Shown here: one piece after another, positions 1 to 40,150 of the stretch | How positions within the stretch are numbered: the stretch's first letter is position 1 | Layout: each line of letters opens with the position of its first letter | Assembly: GCA_019359125.1 (NCBI GenBank) | Contig: JAHHHY010000022.1 | Coordinates: 1-40,150 of the forward strand | Direction of reading: 5' to 3' | Length of the DNA stretch: 40,150 bases | DNA from: Pleurocapsa minor GSE-CHR-MK 17-07R | Lineage (GTDB): Bacteria > Chloroflexota > Anaerolineae > Aggregatilineales > Phototrophicaceae | The notes under the pieces: generated by a model | Database searches by the model: none | Told to the model about the DNA's origin: nothing | Seen by the model: only the letters and a program-made list of their open reading frames with translations | Program-made: the position numbers and the translations under genes

Positions 1-1
1 C

Positions 2-127
2 AAAAGATATGGATTATAATGTCTTCTGTAGTCACGGGGTGCACTCCACTCGAATTCGCACTTTAAGTGTGTGCCGTCCTCGTGACTACTTCAAATTTCC
101 ATCCTCATAAAACCCGCACCACTGGTT
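2..127. repeat. Terminal inverted repeat, left copy (126 bp)
   Basis: Reverse-complementing 40025-40150 gives this segment with four mismatches and no gap over 126 bp. Inside lies a 62-bp core (28-89) bounded by GTAGTCACG and CGTGACTAC, with further partial self-complementarity, so the core could fold into a long imperfect hairpin. The inner edge overlaps the last codons and stop of the minus-strand glycosyltransferase gene. The mismatches argue for two genomic copies of a dispersed element rather than a copied read artefact. Its nature (MITE, REP-like palindrome or gene-end hairpin) is unknown. Confidence 0.9.
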
Positions 128-1809
128 TGTATGCAATTTAATTGATAGATTTGGATTCCTGGTTGGTGCCAAACAGTTGCAGTATGCATGAAAAGGTCAT
201 TTCCAAGCTGTGGTGGGCGTACCTGTTCGAAAACGACTGCGTAACGCTTCAACCGATCTCGAAGCTCGAAAATTTCGTTCGGTACAGGCTCATTAAGTGC
301 AGCTGAAGTGCGAACGGCATCATTCGTTAGCGCATCCGAAAAGACTATGAAATCAATTCCTGCTGCACAAAGCTTGTCATCCGAGGGAAATGATGCACCT
401 GTCCCATAGGTTTGAAAATGTGGAAATCGAACTGGATCAACTGAAACATTGTAGGCACCGACCAAGTAAAGGCTTGTTTGAGGAGCTAGATTTTCGTAAA
501 TCCATTCTTGCGCCAAAGTCCGTGTATCGGTAATGCTAATCGATTTTACGAAGGATATCGAAAAAACCATTGGCCAAATAACAACAGCAATGCTAGAAAC
601 AAAACAGAGTTCGCGACTTACTTTTAAAGCAAGGAAAATTTTTTGAGCGCCTAAACCAGCCAGTATGGCTAGGACTGGGATGATTGGAACCAGTAATTGG
701 TCACTGTGTCCTGGTCTGACAGTGCGTAAAAATAAACTTCCATAAATGACCAATTGGAAAATCAAGAAAACATAAAAGATATGAATGTGCAAACGACGTA
801 TGTTCCATATGGTTAAAACCACGCTAAATACGACCAAGATTGAGACCGGGATACCTAGAGCGACAACAAACAAATATTGGATTTCAAAGTACAACCCAAA
901 CGGCGTTACTTGAGAGATATTGACCCCTTCTAAATAAACAGACGAAATATAGTGAATGTCGCTAATAAATTTTCTAAACGCAAAAACCGTTCCAGGCGTA
1001 GAAATCAGAAACGCTAAAGGTATAGAAAAAAGAGATAATGAAACCAGAGTCCAATGACGTTTATCTTGAATAACTATAGTCAGCCCAGTTAAGACAACTA
1101 CAAAGGCTACTGGTGCTGCGTTGTATCTCGATCCTGTTGCTAGTCCTGCCGCTGCACCTGCCAAAATCAAATTCATGACCGCTTTACGGTAATTGTCCTT
1201 AATTTTTAGTGTTCGAACACAACTCCAAATGCTTAAGGCAGTAAAGCCTGCCGCCATACTACTTGTAGTGGCATAATGCGCATGTTGCACCATCGGCAAT
1301 GACACCGTAACTATCAGAGCTGCAAGAAATGCAGCGTAAAATCCAGAAAGTAAACGTACTGCGCCGTATGTGGCAGCAACAGCCAGCAATCCGCCTAAAG
1401 CTGACCAACTTCTACCCATAATATAAAGTGAAAAGTCTGCAATTTGTCGTTGACTCTGACCTGTAATTTCGTTTAGTGACTTGTCGTTTTTCCCTGTAAG
1501 TGTGTTTATGAATAAATTCAGATTAATTAAGAGTGACGGGTTTTCAAAAAAGTCAGGGTTTAACCTTCTTTGAGCTGCCATCTGGACGGGAATCGCAACA
1601 TAAAAATATTCATCCGGGTGAACCGCAGATTCTAAAGGCAAAAAATTTCCCGCTTGGTCGGAGGGAAAAAGTACCATGTTGGGTTGACCAAAGCTGATTC
1701 CAACAACGCGAAAAATAAATGCGAGCAACAACAAGGCTGTTACGATAAGGATTTCATAGCCTTGTTTATTCAGGTGCGAGAATGAAAGCATTAAGCGTTT
1801 ATACCCCAA
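91..1809 (-). CDS. GT-C fold membrane glycosyltransferase (GT39/ArnT-like), AT-rich
   Basis: This 572-residue protein has about ten hydrophobic segments, beginning near residue 20. After the first segment comes HPDE (residues 64-67), the acidic loop motif seen in dolichyl-phosphate-mannose-type and ArnT-like GT-C enzymes that move a sugar from a polyprenyl carrier on the outer face of the membrane. The second half has further membrane segments and a soluble C-terminal domain. The donor and acceptor cannot be read from the sequence. The gene is much more AT-rich than the core of the window and lacks its strong third-position GC bias, which suggests transfer. The last eleven codons lie inside the terminal repeat, so the C-terminus may have been supplied by that element. 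A paralogue with the same HPDE motif lies at 4606-6126. Confidence 0.72.
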   Translation of the reverse strand: MGYKRLMLSFSHLNKQGYEILIVTALLLLAFIFRVVGISFGQPNMVLFPSDQAGNFLPLESAVHPDEYFYVAIPVQMAAQRRLNPDFFENPSLLINLNLFINTLTGKNDKSLNEITGQSQRQIADFSLYIMGRSWSALGGLLAVAATYGAVRLLSGFYAAFLAALIVTVSLPMVQHAHYATTSSMAAGFTALSIWSCVRTLKIKDNYRKAVMNLILAGAAAGLATGSRYNAAPVAFVVVLTGLTIVIQDKRHWTLVSLSLFSIPLAFLISTPGTVFAFRKFISDIHYISSVYLEGVNISQVTPFGLYFEIQYLFVVALGIPVSILVVFSVVLTIWNIRRLHIHIFYVFLIFQLVIYGSLFLRTVRPGHSDQLLVPIIPVLAILAGLGAQKIFLALKVSRELCFVSSIAVVIWPMVFSISFVKSISITDTRTLAQEWIYENLAPQTSLYLVGAYNVSVDPVRFPHFQTYGTGASFPSDDKLCAAGIDFIVFSDALTNDAVRTSAALNEPVPNEIFELRDRLKRYAVVFEQVRPPQLGNDLFMHTATVWHQPGIQIYQLNCIQTSGAGFMRMEI

Positions 1810-8404: not shown

Positions 8405-12364
<3,960 letters not shown>

Positions 12365-12702: not shown

Positions 12703-14793
12703 ATGTCCGTTGCCGACGACATCAAATCCAAGCTGGATATTGTCACCTATATTCAGCGGACGACACCGCTGAAGCGCGCGGGCCGCGTCTACAAGGCCTG
12801 CTGCCCGTTCCATAATGAGCGCACGCCCAGCTTCGTCGTCAACCCGGATACGCAGTCATGGCGCTGCTTCGGCGCATGTGCCGAGGGCGGCGATGTGTTC
12901 AAATTTGCCATGAAGCAGAATGGCTGGACCTTCCGCGAATCGCTGGAAGAGCTGGGGCGCATGGTGGGCGTGGAAGTGCGCCAGCAGACGCCCGAACAGA
13001 AATCGCGCGATGAAGCCAGCGACCGCCTGCGCGGGCTGGTGAAGCTGGCCGCCGAATATTATCACGAGCGACTGCTGGATCCGTCTGACGCCGATGCTGC
13101 CGCCACGCTGGATTATGCGCTGCACAGGCGCGGCCTGACGCTGGAAACGATCAAAAAATTCCAGATCGGCTATGCCCCGAACCGCTGGGACGGCCTGATG
13201 CGCTATCTGATCGACTTCGGCTCCAGCGAAAATGACCTGATCGTGGCCGGCCTGATCAAGCGCAACGACCAGGGCCGCGTGTATGATGCCTTCCGCAACC
13301 GGCTGATGATTCCCATCCGCGACGAACGCGGCCGCCCGGTCGGGTTTGGGGCGCGTGCGTTGGCCGCCGAAGACAATCCCAAGTACCTGAATTCGCCGCA
13401 GTCGCCCATCTTCGACAAGAGCCGCATCCTGTTTGCGCTCAATCTGGCCGCGCCCGCCATCCGCTCATCGGAACAGGTCGTAATCGTGGAAGGTTATCTG
13501 GATGCCATTCAGGCGCACCAGGCCGGCTATACCAACGTCGTCGCCCAGATGGGCACCGCCTTCACCGAGCATCAGCTCAGGCTGGTGGCGCCGCGCTGGG
13601 CGCACAAAATCATCCTCGCACTGGACGCCGACGCCGCCGGGCAGAATGCCACGCGCCGCAGCCTGGAAGTGGCGCGGACGACGCTGGAAGATGACCTGAC
13701 CGGCAAGCTGGGCGTCGAGTTTCGCGTGCTGCACGTGCCCAATGCCAAAGACCCGGACGACTTCATCCGAGAACAGCCGGGCGACTGGCCGAGTCTGATT
13801 GACGAAGCCATGCCGGTGGCCGATTTCGTCATCGGCATGGAGATGGCCACGCTGCCGCCCAATGCCAGCATCCAGGAGCGCGAGGCCGCCGCCATGCGCC
13901 TGCTGCCGCTGCTGTCTGCCTCTGAAGATGACCTGTACCGCGGCTCAAATATCCAGCGCCTGGCGATGAAACTGCGCCTGCCGGAACGCGATATGCTGAT
14001 GTGGGCAGCCGAGCATCAGAAAACCAGACAGGCCAGGCCGCCCCGCCCTGCCCCGGCAGAGCCAAAACAACCCGTCACAACCGGCCCTGACGACGCATAT
14101 ATGGAATACAGGGATGAAGACGCTTACGACGACTTCACTCCGTATGTCGAGGTCGGCAGCAGCATCGAGTCGACCGCCACACCCGCCGTGCCTGTACTGC
14201 CGACGCGCCCGCGCCCTGCCCCCACTGAAATTGATATGGAGGCCTACTGCCTGCGCGCGCTGTTCGAGCAACCGGGCAATTATTACGCGGTCAACCGACG
14301 CATGCGCGAACTAGCCGAGGACGACGCCACGCTGCAAAGCGGGCCACTGGGTGATTTCTGCGCCGAGGACTTCACGCGCACTGCCCATCAGGAGCTGATG
14401 CGCCAGTTCATGGGCGCGTTGCAGCAGGACGAATTCGAATTTATCGACTACCTGCGGCACAATCTGGATGAGAACCTGGCGCATGAGCTGGTCGCCATCA
14501 TGCACACGCGTGAGCAGTCGTTCGCGCTGCACCTGCATCAGCGGCAGCTGGGCGATCTGGAGCGCGTGCTGGCGCTGACCGAACGGCAGACCGCACTGCT
14601 GGACCACAGTGCCGAGTTGATCGAGAAGGCGCTGCGCCTGCGCGAAAAGCGGCTCGCCCGCGAACGACAGGAGATCGTGTATCTGTTGATGGAAGGCATG
14701 ACAAACGAAACCGGGAGCTTGATGACGCACGCCACCAACACGCTGAAAGCCAAAGAACGGATAGACCGTGCGATCAGCGGTCAGACAAGCTAA
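12703..14793 (+). CDS. dnaG: DNA primase
   Basis: The 696-residue protein has the three bacterial primase parts. The N-terminal CHC2 zinc domain reads C34PFH37 and later RC55FGAC59, so the last two cysteines are three residues apart instead of the usual two. The catalytic core has VVIVEGYLDAI near residue 259 (the TOPRIM glutamate) and ILALDADAAGQ near 304 (metal-binding aspartates). The C-terminal part, after a charged, Pro-rich linker at about 440-510, is the helical region expected to bind the replicative helicase. The enzyme makes RNA primers for DNA replication. It lies 69 bases upstream of rpoD, as in the classical macromolecular-synthesis operon, without rpsU. Confidence 0.97.
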   Translation: MSVADDIKSKLDIVTYIQRTTPLKRAGRVYKACCPFHNERTPSFVVNPDTQSWRCFGACAEGGDVFKFAMKQNGWTFRESLEELGRMVGVEVRQQTPEQKSRDEASDRLRGLVKLAAEYYHERLLDPSDADAAATLDYALHRRGLTLETIKKFQIGYAPNRWDGLMRYLIDFGSSENDLIVAGLIKRNDQGRVYDAFRNRLMIPIRDERGRPVGFGARALAAEDNPKYLNSPQSPIFDKSRILFALNLAAPAIRSSEQVVIVEGYLDAIQAHQAGYTNVVAQMGTAFTEHQLRLVAPRWAHKIILALDADAAGQNATRRSLEVARTTLEDDLTGKLGVEFRVLHVPNAKDPDDFIREQPGDWPSLIDEAMPVADFVIGMEMATLPPNASIQEREAAAMRLLPLLSASEDDLYRGSNIQRLAMKLRLPERDMLMWAAEHQKTRQARPPRPAPAEPKQPVTTGPDDAYMEYRDEDAYDDFTPYVEVGSSIESTATPAVPVLPTRPRPAPTEIDMEAYCLRALFEQPGNYYAVNRRMRELAEDDATLQSGPLGDFCAEDFTRTAHQELMRQFMGALQQDEFEFIDYLRHNLDENLAHELVAIMHTREQSFALHLHQRQLGDLERVLALTERQTALLDHSAELIEKALRLREKRLARERQEIVYLLMEGMTNETGSLMTHATNTLKAKERIDRAISGQTS

Positions 14794-17906: not shown

Positions 17907-17941
17907 CAGGCTGTGCGGCCGGTTATGTGGCCACCAGCCTG
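17907..17941 (+). terminator. First of two hairpins downstream of DUF151
   Basis: CAGGCTG (17907-17913) pairs with CAGCCTG (17935-17941), extended by an inner GGCC/GGCC stem. There is no T-run. It could be a processing or stabilising structure, or part of a double terminator. Confidence 0.5.
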
Positions 17942-17956
17942 TCCATTCTGCATCCC

Positions 17957-17997
17957 AAAACGGCGGCGCGGCGACACAATCAGCCTCACGCCGTTTT
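17957..17997 (+). terminator. Intrinsic terminator-like hairpin before dnaB
   Basis: AAAACGGCG (17957-17965) and CGCCGTTTT (17989-17997) form a perfect nine-base stem ending in TTTT. It lies only 13 bases before the dnaB ATG at 18011, so either it terminates the DUF151 transcript or it regulates dnaB by folding over its leader. Confidence 0.65.
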
Positions 17998-18010
17998 ATG
18001 TCCCCAAGCG

Positions 18011-19384
18011 ATGGAACTGCCCATGAATAATGCACCCACCACATACATGCAGGTGAACCAGTCGCCCTTCAGCCAGGAAGCTGAGGAGGCGGTGCTGGGT
18101 GCTGTGCTGATCAACCCCGATGCCTTCCTGGCGCTGGCGGCTTTCCTGAAGCCCGACGACTTCTTTTTTGTGCGTCACCAGTATATCTGGGAAGCTTTCA
18201 TGCGCATCAGCGAACGGCGCGATCGGGTCGACTATATCACCGTGCACGAGGAACTGCGCACGCTGGGCAAGCTGGACGATGTGGGCGGCGCGCCCTATCT
18301 GCTTCAGCTCACCAACAGCACGCCCACCAGCGTGCACGCCGAAATCTACGGTCGTCTGGTCGAGCGCACGTCGCTTCGCCGCAAGCTGATCAAAGCGGCT
18401 GACGATATTAAGGCGCTGGCTCACGAGGAATCGCGCCCGATCGAGACGGTCGTGGCCGACGCCGAGGCCAAGCTGTTCGCCGTGACCGAGAGCGGCGCCC
18501 GGCGCGATTTGAAATCGCTCAAGGAAGCCGTCGATGAATACTTCGACCAGACCGAATACCGCATGCTCAACCCCGATATCCCGCGCGGCCTGCCCACCGG
18601 CTTCCGCGACATCGACGAGCTGCTGGGCGGGCTGCAGCGCTCCGACCTGCTGATCTTCGCCGGACGCCCCGGCATGGGCAAGACCTCATTCCTGCTGTCA
18701 GTCGCGCTGAACGCCGCGCGCGTGGGCGGGCGCATCGCCATCTTCACGATGGAAATGGGCACCGAGCAGATCGTGCAGCGCCTGATGTCGATGGAAACCG
18801 GCATTAATACGCAGAACATGCGCGGCGGTCGGCTGAGCCAGTCCGAATGGTCGAAGTTCGTCAAGGCCTCCACCCGCCTCAGCACCATGAATATGTTCAT
18901 CGACGACACGCCGGGCGTCTCGCCGCTGGAGCTGCGTACCAAGTGCCGCCGCATGATGCACGAGCACGGGCTGGACCTGGTGATCATCGATTACCTCCAG
19001 CTCATGAGCGTGGGCGGCTATGAGAACAACCGCGTACAGGAAATCAGCTATATCAGCCGCAGCCTGAAAGAGATGGCCCGCGAGCTGGATGTGCCGGTAT
19101 TCTCGGCAGCGCAGCTTTCGCGTGCGGTGGAGCAGCGCCAGGACAAGCGCCCGGTGCTGAGCGACCTGCGCGAATCCGGCTCGCTGGAGCAGGACGCCGA
19201 CATCGTCGCCTTCCTGTACCGCGACGAGGTGTATAACCAGGCGACGGAATTCCCCAGCATGGCGGAAATCATCATCCAGAAGCACCGTAACGGCCCGACC
19301 GGCACGGTCAATCTGCATTTCGAAAAGTCGCTGACCAAGTTCAGCGATGCGCGCACACAATCCGCCAACCTGCGTGACCTATGA
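18011..19384 (+). CDS. dnaB: Replicative DNA helicase DnaB
   Basis: I choose ATG 18011 (457 residues); ATG 18023 is equally possible, and the frame open to 17927 would cover the terminator. The N-terminal domain (SQEAEEAVLGAVLINP) is the primase-binding bundle. The C-terminal RecA-like domain begins with RGLPTGFRDIDELLGGLQ. It has Walker A GRPGMGKTS near residue 217, Walker B LVIIDYLQLM near 322, and RELDVPVFSAAQLSRAVEQR with the DLRESGSLEQDAD block near the end. It is the hexameric helicase that unwinds DNA at the fork. Its stop overlaps the ATG of the DnaD-domain gene by four bases (ATGA), so translation is coupled. Confidence 0.97.
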   Translation: MELPMNNAPTTYMQVNQSPFSQEAEEAVLGAVLINPDAFLALAAFLKPDDFFFVRHQYIWEAFMRISERRDRVDYITVHEELRTLGKLDDVGGAPYLLQLTNSTPTSVHAEIYGRLVERTSLRRKLIKAADDIKALAHEESRPIETVVADAEAKLFAVTESGARRDLKSLKEAVDEYFDQTEYRMLNPDIPRGLPTGFRDIDELLGGLQRSDLLIFAGRPGMGKTSFLLSVALNAARVGGRIAIFTMEMGTEQIVQRLMSMETGINTQNMRGGRLSQSEWSKFVKASTRLSTMNMFIDDTPGVSPLELRTKCRRMMHEHGLDLVIIDYLQLMSVGGYENNRVQEISYISRSLKEMARELDVPVFSAAQLSRAVEQRQDKRPVLSDLRESGSLEQDADIVAFLYRDEVYNQATEFPSMAEIIIQKHRNGPTGTVNLHFEKSLTKFSDARTQSANLRDL

Positions 19385-38088: not shown

Positions 38089-38159
38089 GGCGACGTGGCC
38101 AAGTGGCAAGGCAAAGCTCTGCAAAAGCTTGATCACCAGTTCGAATCTGGTCGTCGCCT
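38089..38159 (+). tRNA. tRNA-Cys (GCA)
   Basis: The 71-base gene folds as a cloverleaf: acceptor GGCGACG/CGTCGCC, D stem GCC/GGC, anticodon stem AAGCT/AGCTT around CTGCAAA (anticodon GCA), T stem ACCAG/CTGGT with TTCGAAT, and discriminator U, the identity base for cysteine. CCA is not encoded. A strong promoter precedes it and an intrinsic terminator follows. Confidence 0.96.
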
Positions 38160-39930: not shown

Positions 39931-40024
39931 GCTTATATCAGCTATTGTGGATTCACTACTTCCTGATGGATTATTGTCTACATTTGAGGATGATATTGTT
40001 AAAATGGAAGCGATTATTGCTATT
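39931..40024. other. AT-rich segment between last gene and right repeat
   Basis: It contains the open N-terminal continuation of the minus-strand membrane gene and, on the plus strand, a 23-codon frame starting ATG 39990 that ends inside the repeat (40061). I see no promoter or RNA gene. Confidence 0.4.
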
Positions 40025-40150
40025 AACCAGTGGTGCGGGTTTTATGAGTAGGAAAATTTGAAGTAGTCACGAGGACAGCACACACTTAAAGTGCGAATTC
40101 GAGTGGAGTGCACCCCGTGACTACAGAAGACATTATAATCCATATCTTTT
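40025..40150. repeat. Terminal inverted repeat, right copy (126 bp)
   Basis: Inverted copy of 2-127, 122 of 126 bases identical by eye, with the palindromic core at 40063-40124 bounded by GTAGTCACG and CGTGACTAC. It ends exactly at the window end, which suggests that assembly stopped in this repeat. Confidence 0.9.

Follow-up and report, generated by a model that had tools for sequence, protein, structure and literature searches.

Why do both ends of this contig carry the same 126-bp sequence in inverted orientation, and what does the palindrome inside it do? The window, which is the whole stretch of DNA that we analyzed, is an entire contig (C8; 40,150 bp) from an assembly of 23 contigs and 4.85 Mb. 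The initial annotation had reported an inverted repeat at the window's ends, and direct comparison bears this out: positions 2-127 align without gaps to 40025-40150 read as its reverse complement, with 122 matches among 126 positions and differences at 75, 99, 101, and 103. A 62-bp palindromic core lies at 28-89, and its second copy lies at 40063-40124. We consider it likely that a single explanation accounts for these features: each window end is the left end of an insertion sequence (IS) related to the IS982 family, and the palindrome is a hairpin in the leader of the transposase mRNA that silences read-through transcripts.

As we read the sequence, the features at the two ends are:

1-126, minus strand: left end of an IS copy, variant A; the IS begins at 126 and is cut off by the contig end at 1
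111-126, minus strand: terminal inverted repeat of the left end, ACCAGTGGTGCGGGTT (16 nt); agrees with the IS982 end consensus, and its inverse is at the right ends
127-131: presumed target duplication of 5 bp, TTGTA (TACAA when read along the IS); matches the flank of the right end on C19, a pairing that is not significant
28-89, minus strand: leader hairpin, 62 nt; 5' arm GTAGTCACG (89-81), 3' arm CGTGACTAC (36-28) with the start codon; the two arms pair
33-35, minus strand: transposase start codon GTG; pairs with CAC in the 5' arm
1-35, minus strand: opening codons of the transposase gene (VTTEDIIIHIF), truncated where the contig stops
89-94, minus strand: predicted -35 box TTGAAG
66-71, minus strand: predicted -10 box CACACT (weak); the 17-nt spacer contains most of the 5' arm
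near 59, minus strand: predicted transcription start of the variant A copy
40026-40150, plus strand: left end of the second IS copy, variant B
40026-40041, plus strand: left terminal inverted repeat, second copy
40021-40025: presumed 5-bp target duplication TATTA; matches the flank of the right end on C21, a pairing that is not significant
40063-40124, plus strand: leader hairpin, second copy
40058-40063, plus strand: predicted -35 box TTGAAG, second copy
40081-40086, plus strand: predicted -10 box CACACT, second copy
40117-40119, plus strand: transposase start codon GTG, second copy
40117-40150, plus strand: first codons of the transposase, second copy

The element resembles the IS982 family

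Each window end appears to be the left end of an IS982-like IS of about 0.9 kb. (The length is taken from relatives.) According to the accessible text of a review of the IS982 family (PMC7335449), its members are about 1 kb long, have ends of the form AC(N)6T(N)5TT, encode a single transposase, and make direct repeats of variable length. The same text defines the family by a DDE transposase that lacks a K or R at 6-7 residues after the E and has one about 17 residues after it, and calls the mode of transposition unknown (PMC7335449). The terminal repeat ACCAGTGGTGCGGGTT matches the end consensus letter for letter.

A complete relative (locus L034), from a genome of the same family, is 880 bp long with matching ends and encodes a transposase of 262 amino acids. 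The 77-amino-acid transposase C-terminus on contig C6 of the source genome is 51% identical to it. The transposase from L034 matches the Pfam family DDE_Tnp_1_3 (2.7e-08). Across 10 full-length proteins from relatives, D97, D173, and E201 are invariant, and we assign these as the catalytic triad. In the first aligned relative, the residues 6 and 7 positions after E201 are L and T, so there is no K or R there; R219, at +18, is conserved to 90% or more. The fragment from the source genome shows the C-terminal 77 residues, including the E; both D residues are outside it.

The element's relatives are like IS982 in their ends, their length of about 0.9 kb, their single transposase gene, and their invariant D, D, and E. 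They are unlike it in their score: against NCBIfam's IS982 model, the full protein from L034 (P0002) scores just 63.8 bits (1.7e-17), and the 77-residue fragment scores 13.8 bits, both below the curated cut-off of 130. Because of this, we describe the element as IS982-like and not as a certified member. Furthermore, the transposase from a second relative (L056) is only 22.6-27.4% identical to 39 of the 40 plasmid matches listed (64 records in total), most of which are annotated as IS982. (The remaining listed match, on a Deinococcus plasmid, is 42.1% identical.) Given the low NCBIfam score and the low identity to most of the listed IS982 plasmid matches, the element seems to belong to a divergent subgroup of IS982-like elements.

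Among 396 genomes of the class, 13 have relatives of the 77-residue fragment at E ≤ 1e-10, and among 154 genomes of the order, 9 have them at E ≤ 1e-12; both counts include the source genome. One further relative is in a metagenome-assembled genome whose record is titled Devosia sp., and another is on a Deinococcus plasmid. In viral contigs, a scan with the family profile found no relative, and a scan with a single protein gave one match of 24 residues. Among relatives with both ends on one contig (n = 12), the length is 870-966 bp. An exact direct duplication of 5 bp flanks 7 of these 12 (1.57 expected under the null; P = 1e-4), and 2 more have one of 6 bp. (These are 12 of 14 elements with both ends; L080 and L081 were dropped, with end identities of 5 and 6 of 14.)

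Some related loci have unusual structures. L035 and L036 resemble internal deletions, in which the leader hairpin and the start are joined to the C-terminus of the transposase between terminal repeats. L071 (G512:C146) has a frame that opens like the OrfB of another IS, which we take to be of the IS3 type, and continues as an IS982-like transposase; it might be an insertion into another IS.

A leader hairpin covers the transposase's start codon

If the left end is read in the transposase's direction, the terminal repeat is followed by the 5' arm GTAGTCACG, the loop region, and then ..GGAGTGCACCCC GTG ACT ACA GAA GAC ATT... Both window copies translate as VTTEDIIIHIF, and relatives L068 and L069 begin with MTTEAIIIHIF. 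The 5' arm holds an anti-start sequence. The transposase's start codon lies within the 3' arm CGTGACTAC, and we read the palindromic core as a start-codon hairpin. Judging from the sequence comparisons below, it is well supported that this palindrome is a hairpin in the transposase's mRNA leader and covers the start codon.

The initial annotation had proposed folding the core. As DNA, the 62-bp core folds at -13.3 kcal/mol (z = -3.76), and 0 of 200 shuffled sequences fold as well. As RNA, the whole 126 nt folds at -34.5 kcal/mol (z = -2.25), and 6 of 200 shuffled sequences do as well.

We also folded the leaders of related elements. Thirty-six loci were offered, of which 7 had no match to the N-terminus. 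From the other 29, we dropped 5: L066 has no start codon, L095 and L097 have lost the N-terminus, and in L099 and L114 the start codon has been lost by mutation. The remaining 24 and the two window copies give 26 leaders. Twenty-four of these (all except L053 and L083) fold better than dinucleotide shuffles (p ≤ 0.05). Ordinary coding sequences from two plasmids reach the same threshold at 5 of 65 starts, in a control with 70-nt leaders and 100 shuffles as compared to 53-119 nt and 200 shuffles for the IS leaders (77 nt for the window copies). (The control uses 65 of 72 features; transposase genes and cut genes were left out.) In 16 of 26 IS leaders, versus 13 of 65 controls, less than 10% of the start codon's pairing state is unpaired. 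It is buried beyond the shuffles (p ≤ 0.05) in 16 of 26 leaders; the other 10 fall short.

The two arms of an element fit each other. An element's own arms pair at -23.9 kcal/mol on average, versus -13.9 kcal/mol if the arms are swapped between elements, and none of 20,000 permutations was as good. When 5' segments were swapped between elements, an element's own segment ranked first in 17 of 25 cases. In the minimum-energy folds of the 26 leaders, the first base of the start codon forms an A-U pair in 13 and a G-C pair in 5, and is unpaired in 8. Where it is paired, an ATG start faces CAT and a GTG start faces CAC. In four of the five relatives with long leaders (L078, L079, L080, L081, and L083), the hairpin is mainly over the Shine-Dalgarno region and the first base of the start codon is unpaired; the hairpin of L081 covers the start as well. 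Also, all three reading frames are stopped ahead of the hairpin in 7 of 20 leaders (on average 2.3 frames are closed, versus 1.5 in shuffles; the window's own row spans flanking bases, and we conclude nothing from it).

The pairing with the start codon is maintained by compensatory changes

We aligned 20 of the 26 leaders with MAFFT, from the sequences alone. (The five long-leader elements and the second window copy were left out.) RNAalifold predicts just five pairs from this alignment, and these include all three positions of the start codon. For the 9-bp stem as defined in the window, 72.9% of the cells in the alignment pair, versus 20.9-41.2% if the partner is slid. Sixteen cells have changes on both sides, versus 3.8 in shuffled alignments, and the covariation score is 0.288 versus 0.118; none of 500 shuffles reached 0.288. 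At the first nucleotide of the start codon, 12 sequences have U-A, 4 have C-G, and 4 have neither. The alignment indicates that the pairing with the start codon is kept through compensatory changes among the relatives.

Two of the five measures are weaker and separate the stem less well from its controls. Pairs with any change on both sides number 4, versus 2.6 in shuffles (83 of 500 shuffles reach 4), and further pair types number 12, versus 9.1 (11 of 500 reach 12). A stem slid by +3 exceeds the true stem on both of these measures, with 7 and 13. Also, most of the aligned sequences lack the outermost two pairs of the stem seen in the window: 14 of 17 do not form the one, and 14 of 20 do not form the other.

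A predicted promoter spans the 5' arm

If the hairpin covers the start codon, where do the element's own transcripts begin? Among the 20 short-leader elements, 19 have a TTG that could serve as a -35 box early in the leader, mostly right inside the terminal repeat. (The exception is L073, which has TAGAAA at this place.) If the -10 score is anchored at the -35 box, then the average across the 20 elements has a clear peak at a spacer of 17. The best -10 score at spacers of 16-18 averages 2.37, versus -1.47 for the null (standard deviation 0.62), and none of 2,000 mononucleotide shuffles was as high. A caveat is that these scores come from a promoter matrix for E. coli, which may not suit the host's sigma factor. 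The 21 promoter positions for individual elements were looked for near the leader's start only, and they are not evidence by themselves; it is the shuffle test that counts.

We predict a σ70-like promoter with the 5' arm in the spacer between -35 and -10, so that transcription would start after the 5' arm. Because the 5' arm sits within the promoter's spacer, native transcripts are predicted to lack it. When the leaders are cut at the predicted start, the mean probability that the start codon is unpaired rises from 0.14 to 0.49, with an increase in 18 of 20 leaders. The other two (L069 and L102) close instead, and one of the 18 (L058) opens only from 0.00 to 0.03. For the element in the source genome, the -10 box CACACT is weak and the start codon goes no further than from 0.00 to 0.15 after the cut.

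A proposed lock against read-through transcription

The hairpin is probably a lock against read-through. If RNA polymerase reads into the element from a host gene, then the transcript would contain both arms, would fold over the start codon, and would not be translated. The element's own promoter would give a transcript that starts downstream of the 5' arm and that can be translated. As an outcome, the element would be shielded from activation by host promoters near its insertion site. This would be a testable reason why a widespread and poorly studied IS family may stay quiet downstream of active host genes. Our computations cover the identity of the IS, its copies, their shared 127-nt ends, the compensatory pairing with the start codon, and the promoter-like spacing across the group. 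From these we infer that native transcripts would be translated and read-through transcripts would be silenced.

This class of mechanism is known. In IS10/Tn10 and IS50/Tn5, the read-through mRNA folds back, which protects against external promoters, and the native transcript starts inside the fold and escapes it. By analogy, the IS982-like element would share a read-through fold over the ribosome-binding site or the start, as well as the escape of the native transcript. In our computed structures, the leader with both arms present does fold over this region. Unlike here, the transposases and end sequences of IS10 and IS50 are of unrelated types, and the anti-start arm of the IS982-like element is inside the predicted promoter spacer. 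Two other elements with leader structures are IS200, which has an HUH transposase, and ISPpu9, which is from the IS110 family.

In the IS982-like element, as in IS200, the stem-loop is in the 5' leader. The accessible text on IS200 describes a stem-loop in the 5' leader of tnpA that occludes the ribosome-binding site (PMC12594629, PMC3196728) and ends without terminal inverted repeats (PMC3196728). In contrast to IS200, pairing here extends over the start codon itself, and a change between ATG and GTG is compensated in the other arm. For ISPpu9, a fold in the 5' untranslated region of tnp over the ribosome-binding site lowers the translation of the transposase, and an antisense RNA opens the long leader, as described in the available part of that study (PMC8450116). 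The likeness is that a leader structure limits transposase translation (reported for ISPpu9, predicted here); the differences are the length of ISPpu9's leader and its opening by antisense RNA.

These precedents also suggest another reading, in which the hairpin is present in all transcripts, native ones included, and keeps translation constitutively low, perhaps until an antisense RNA or a protein opens it. ISPpu9's leader fold lowers translation in just this way (PMC8450116), sequestration of the ribosome-binding site by IS200's stem-loop is similar (PMC12594629), and the weak predicted promoter in the source genome's element would fit. But from the conserved spacing of the -35 and -10 boxes, transcription is predicted to begin after the 5' arm, and 18 of 20 leaders have a more open start codon once they are cut at these predicted starts. 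We view constitutively low translation as improbable, though it is the strongest of the alternatives.

A second alternative is that the hairpin acts as DNA. Covariation by itself cannot separate a role in RNA from a role in single-stranded DNA, and a hairpin that folds well as DNA and lies just inside the left terminal repeat might be a subterminal palindrome that the transposase binds or that is extruded as a cruciform, for transposition and not for translation. However, the hairpin is at one end only: in the six right ends of this assembly and in those of the relatives inspected, hardly anything separates the transposase's stop codon from the terminal repeat. Also, the arms change and yet keep pairing with whichever start codon is present, which a DNA-binding site would not need, and the hairpin's spacing is tied to the promoter-like boxes. 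A role in DNA thus seems unlikely, and somewhat more so than constitutively low translation.

Copies of the element break the assembly

The initial annotation had argued that the repeat is present as two real copies, and hence at least twice in the genome, and had proposed searching the assembly for more. The search found near-identical copies of the left end at seven contig ends (the start and end of C8, the starts of C15, C22, C9, and C4, and the end of C5), with seven different flanks. They fall into two variants, set apart by the four mismatches: A (the start of C8, C15, C22, and C5) and B (the end of C8, C9, and C4). Neither variant A nor variant B shows any internal difference over the first 124 nt of the IS. 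Right ends are at six contig ends: both ends of C20, the ends of C21, C19, and C4, and the start of C6. All six finish in CCCGCACCACTGGT, the inverse of the terminal repeat. They encode the C-terminus of the transposase, with 77 residues on C6 and the last 35 of these on the other five. Apart from C6, the right ends show no differences over 124 nt; C6 has two in that stretch. The start of C6 is a diverged copy and reaches 252 bp of the IS.

Why does the repeat seem to be about 126 bp long? All seven left ends have exactly 127 nt in common with another copy of the same variant, and so do 5 of the 6 right ends (compared without C6) with another right end. Because 12 of 13 ends have this same 127-nt overlap, we infer that the length is an artefact of a de Bruijn assembly with k = 127, which would break at any repeat longer than k. 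The real repeat runs on into the transposase gene. A search of the assembly with a full-length transposase from a relative gave seven matches, all C-terminal pieces, and the interior of the IS was not found, so the source genome shows its transposase only as end fragments. What looked like a terminal repeat of the contig is an ordinary break point at an IS, with a likely cause, which matters for joining these contigs.

The copies also bear on what kind of repeat this is. The initial annotation had offered a MITE, a REP element, or a recombination site that folds as a single strand, and had noted that many copies with a fixed flank would support a mobile or REP-like element. The two real copies, the further copies in the genome, a mobile element with a fixed flank, and a real fold are all supported, but none of the three named identities is. 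A short, palindromic, multi-copy sequence does suggest a MITE, a REP-type element, or an attC-like site (the last is our addition). We rejected these because the repeat enters the transposase's frame and because the right ends with the inverse repeat encode the transposase's C-terminus: the copies are ends of a longer element that were cut by the contigs, with transposase sequence at both sides. Also, no Rfam family matches at the repeat with a gathering score. We therefore consider these identities very improbable. Equally improbable is a pure assembly artefact (one mis-joined locus, or chimeric ends), which would fit a repeat that stops at contig ends with a fixed length, but not seven left ends with seven different flanks and two variants; only the length is artefactual.

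Can the presumed target duplications show which contigs to join? Exact 5-bp partners exist for the flanks of 4 of the 7 left ends, compared to a mean of 2.9 if the columns are shuffled (P = 0.34). The start of C8 matches the end of C19, and the end of C8 matches the end of C21. TATATA is common to the start of C22 and the end of C4. The end of C5 and the start of C4 (both TAATA) and the end of C20 (TAGTA) have no partner. Since the matching is no better than chance given the target preference, we do not claim any joins from it.

There are also solo fragments in the genome. L008 (C21:119565-119610) and L009 (C20:3461-3518) are diverged left ends, 87% and 81% identical, that break off in or soon after the hairpin's 5' arm and look like remnants of old copies. 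L037 (C17:188704-188861) is a solo remnant of a right end, with part of the transposase's C-terminus and the terminal repeat.

As DNA, the hairpin was not found in public plasmids (blastn, E of 1e-5), in genome contigs (30-base pattern), in viral contigs (25-base pattern), or in 60 related genomes except for the source genome itself. In these searches, the source genome's IS appears to be known from its own genome only, with relatives at the protein level.

The hairpin may extend across the IS982 family

We examined 12 IS982-type transposases from plasmids, out of the 40 matches listed (11 are annotated as IS982, and L087 is annotated as a transposase). Ten of the 12 leaders fold better than mononucleotide shuffles (p ≤ 0.05); the exceptions are L087 and L119. 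In L084, all three bases of the ATG pair with an arm that contains CAT. L122, and L121 with its annotated TTG, also have a start that is paired at all three bases. In the other plasmid leaders, the pairing is over part of the start or just upstream, and L087 has nothing. So the hairpin may be family-wide in IS982, which is less firm than for the subgroup. Whether the whole IS982 family has a read-through lock, with an anti-start arm that lies in the promoter's spacer and co-evolves with the start codon, seems to us evenly balanced. If it does, then one short stretch of DNA would tell the element's own transcripts from those of the host.

With the terms searched, no leader hairpin turned up in the IS982 review, and the word hairpin occurs there once, about frameshifting (PMC7335449). 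In the open-licence literature that we searched, with listed papers judged by title or abstract, we did not find a leader lock for IS982 described, nor its placement in a promoter spacer, which does not prove that these are unreported. There is practical interest in how IS982 transposases are silenced, because the accessible text lists members that raise or abolish the expression of neighbouring resistance genes (PMC7335449).

The segment between the two copies

The segment between the IS copies is ordinary chromosome with essential genes: frames at 8405-12364 (minus strand), 12703-14793 (plus strand), and 17927-19384 (plus strand) contain, in that order, the Pfam domains of rpoB, dnaG, and dnaB. 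Homologous recombination between the two inverted copies could in principle invert these 40 kb. The 5-mers that flank the IS at the two ends of C8 would fit un-inverted insertions, without statistical force.

At the left end, the frame at 91-1809 (minus strand) encodes a PMT-type membrane glycosyltransferase (Pfam), runs into the IS copy, and stops inside it. The left IS copy probably truncates or abuts this gene. The frame points into the transposase gene, which is the situation that the lock would guard against.

The window's only Rfam match with a gathering score is a tRNA at 38089-38159 (plus strand).
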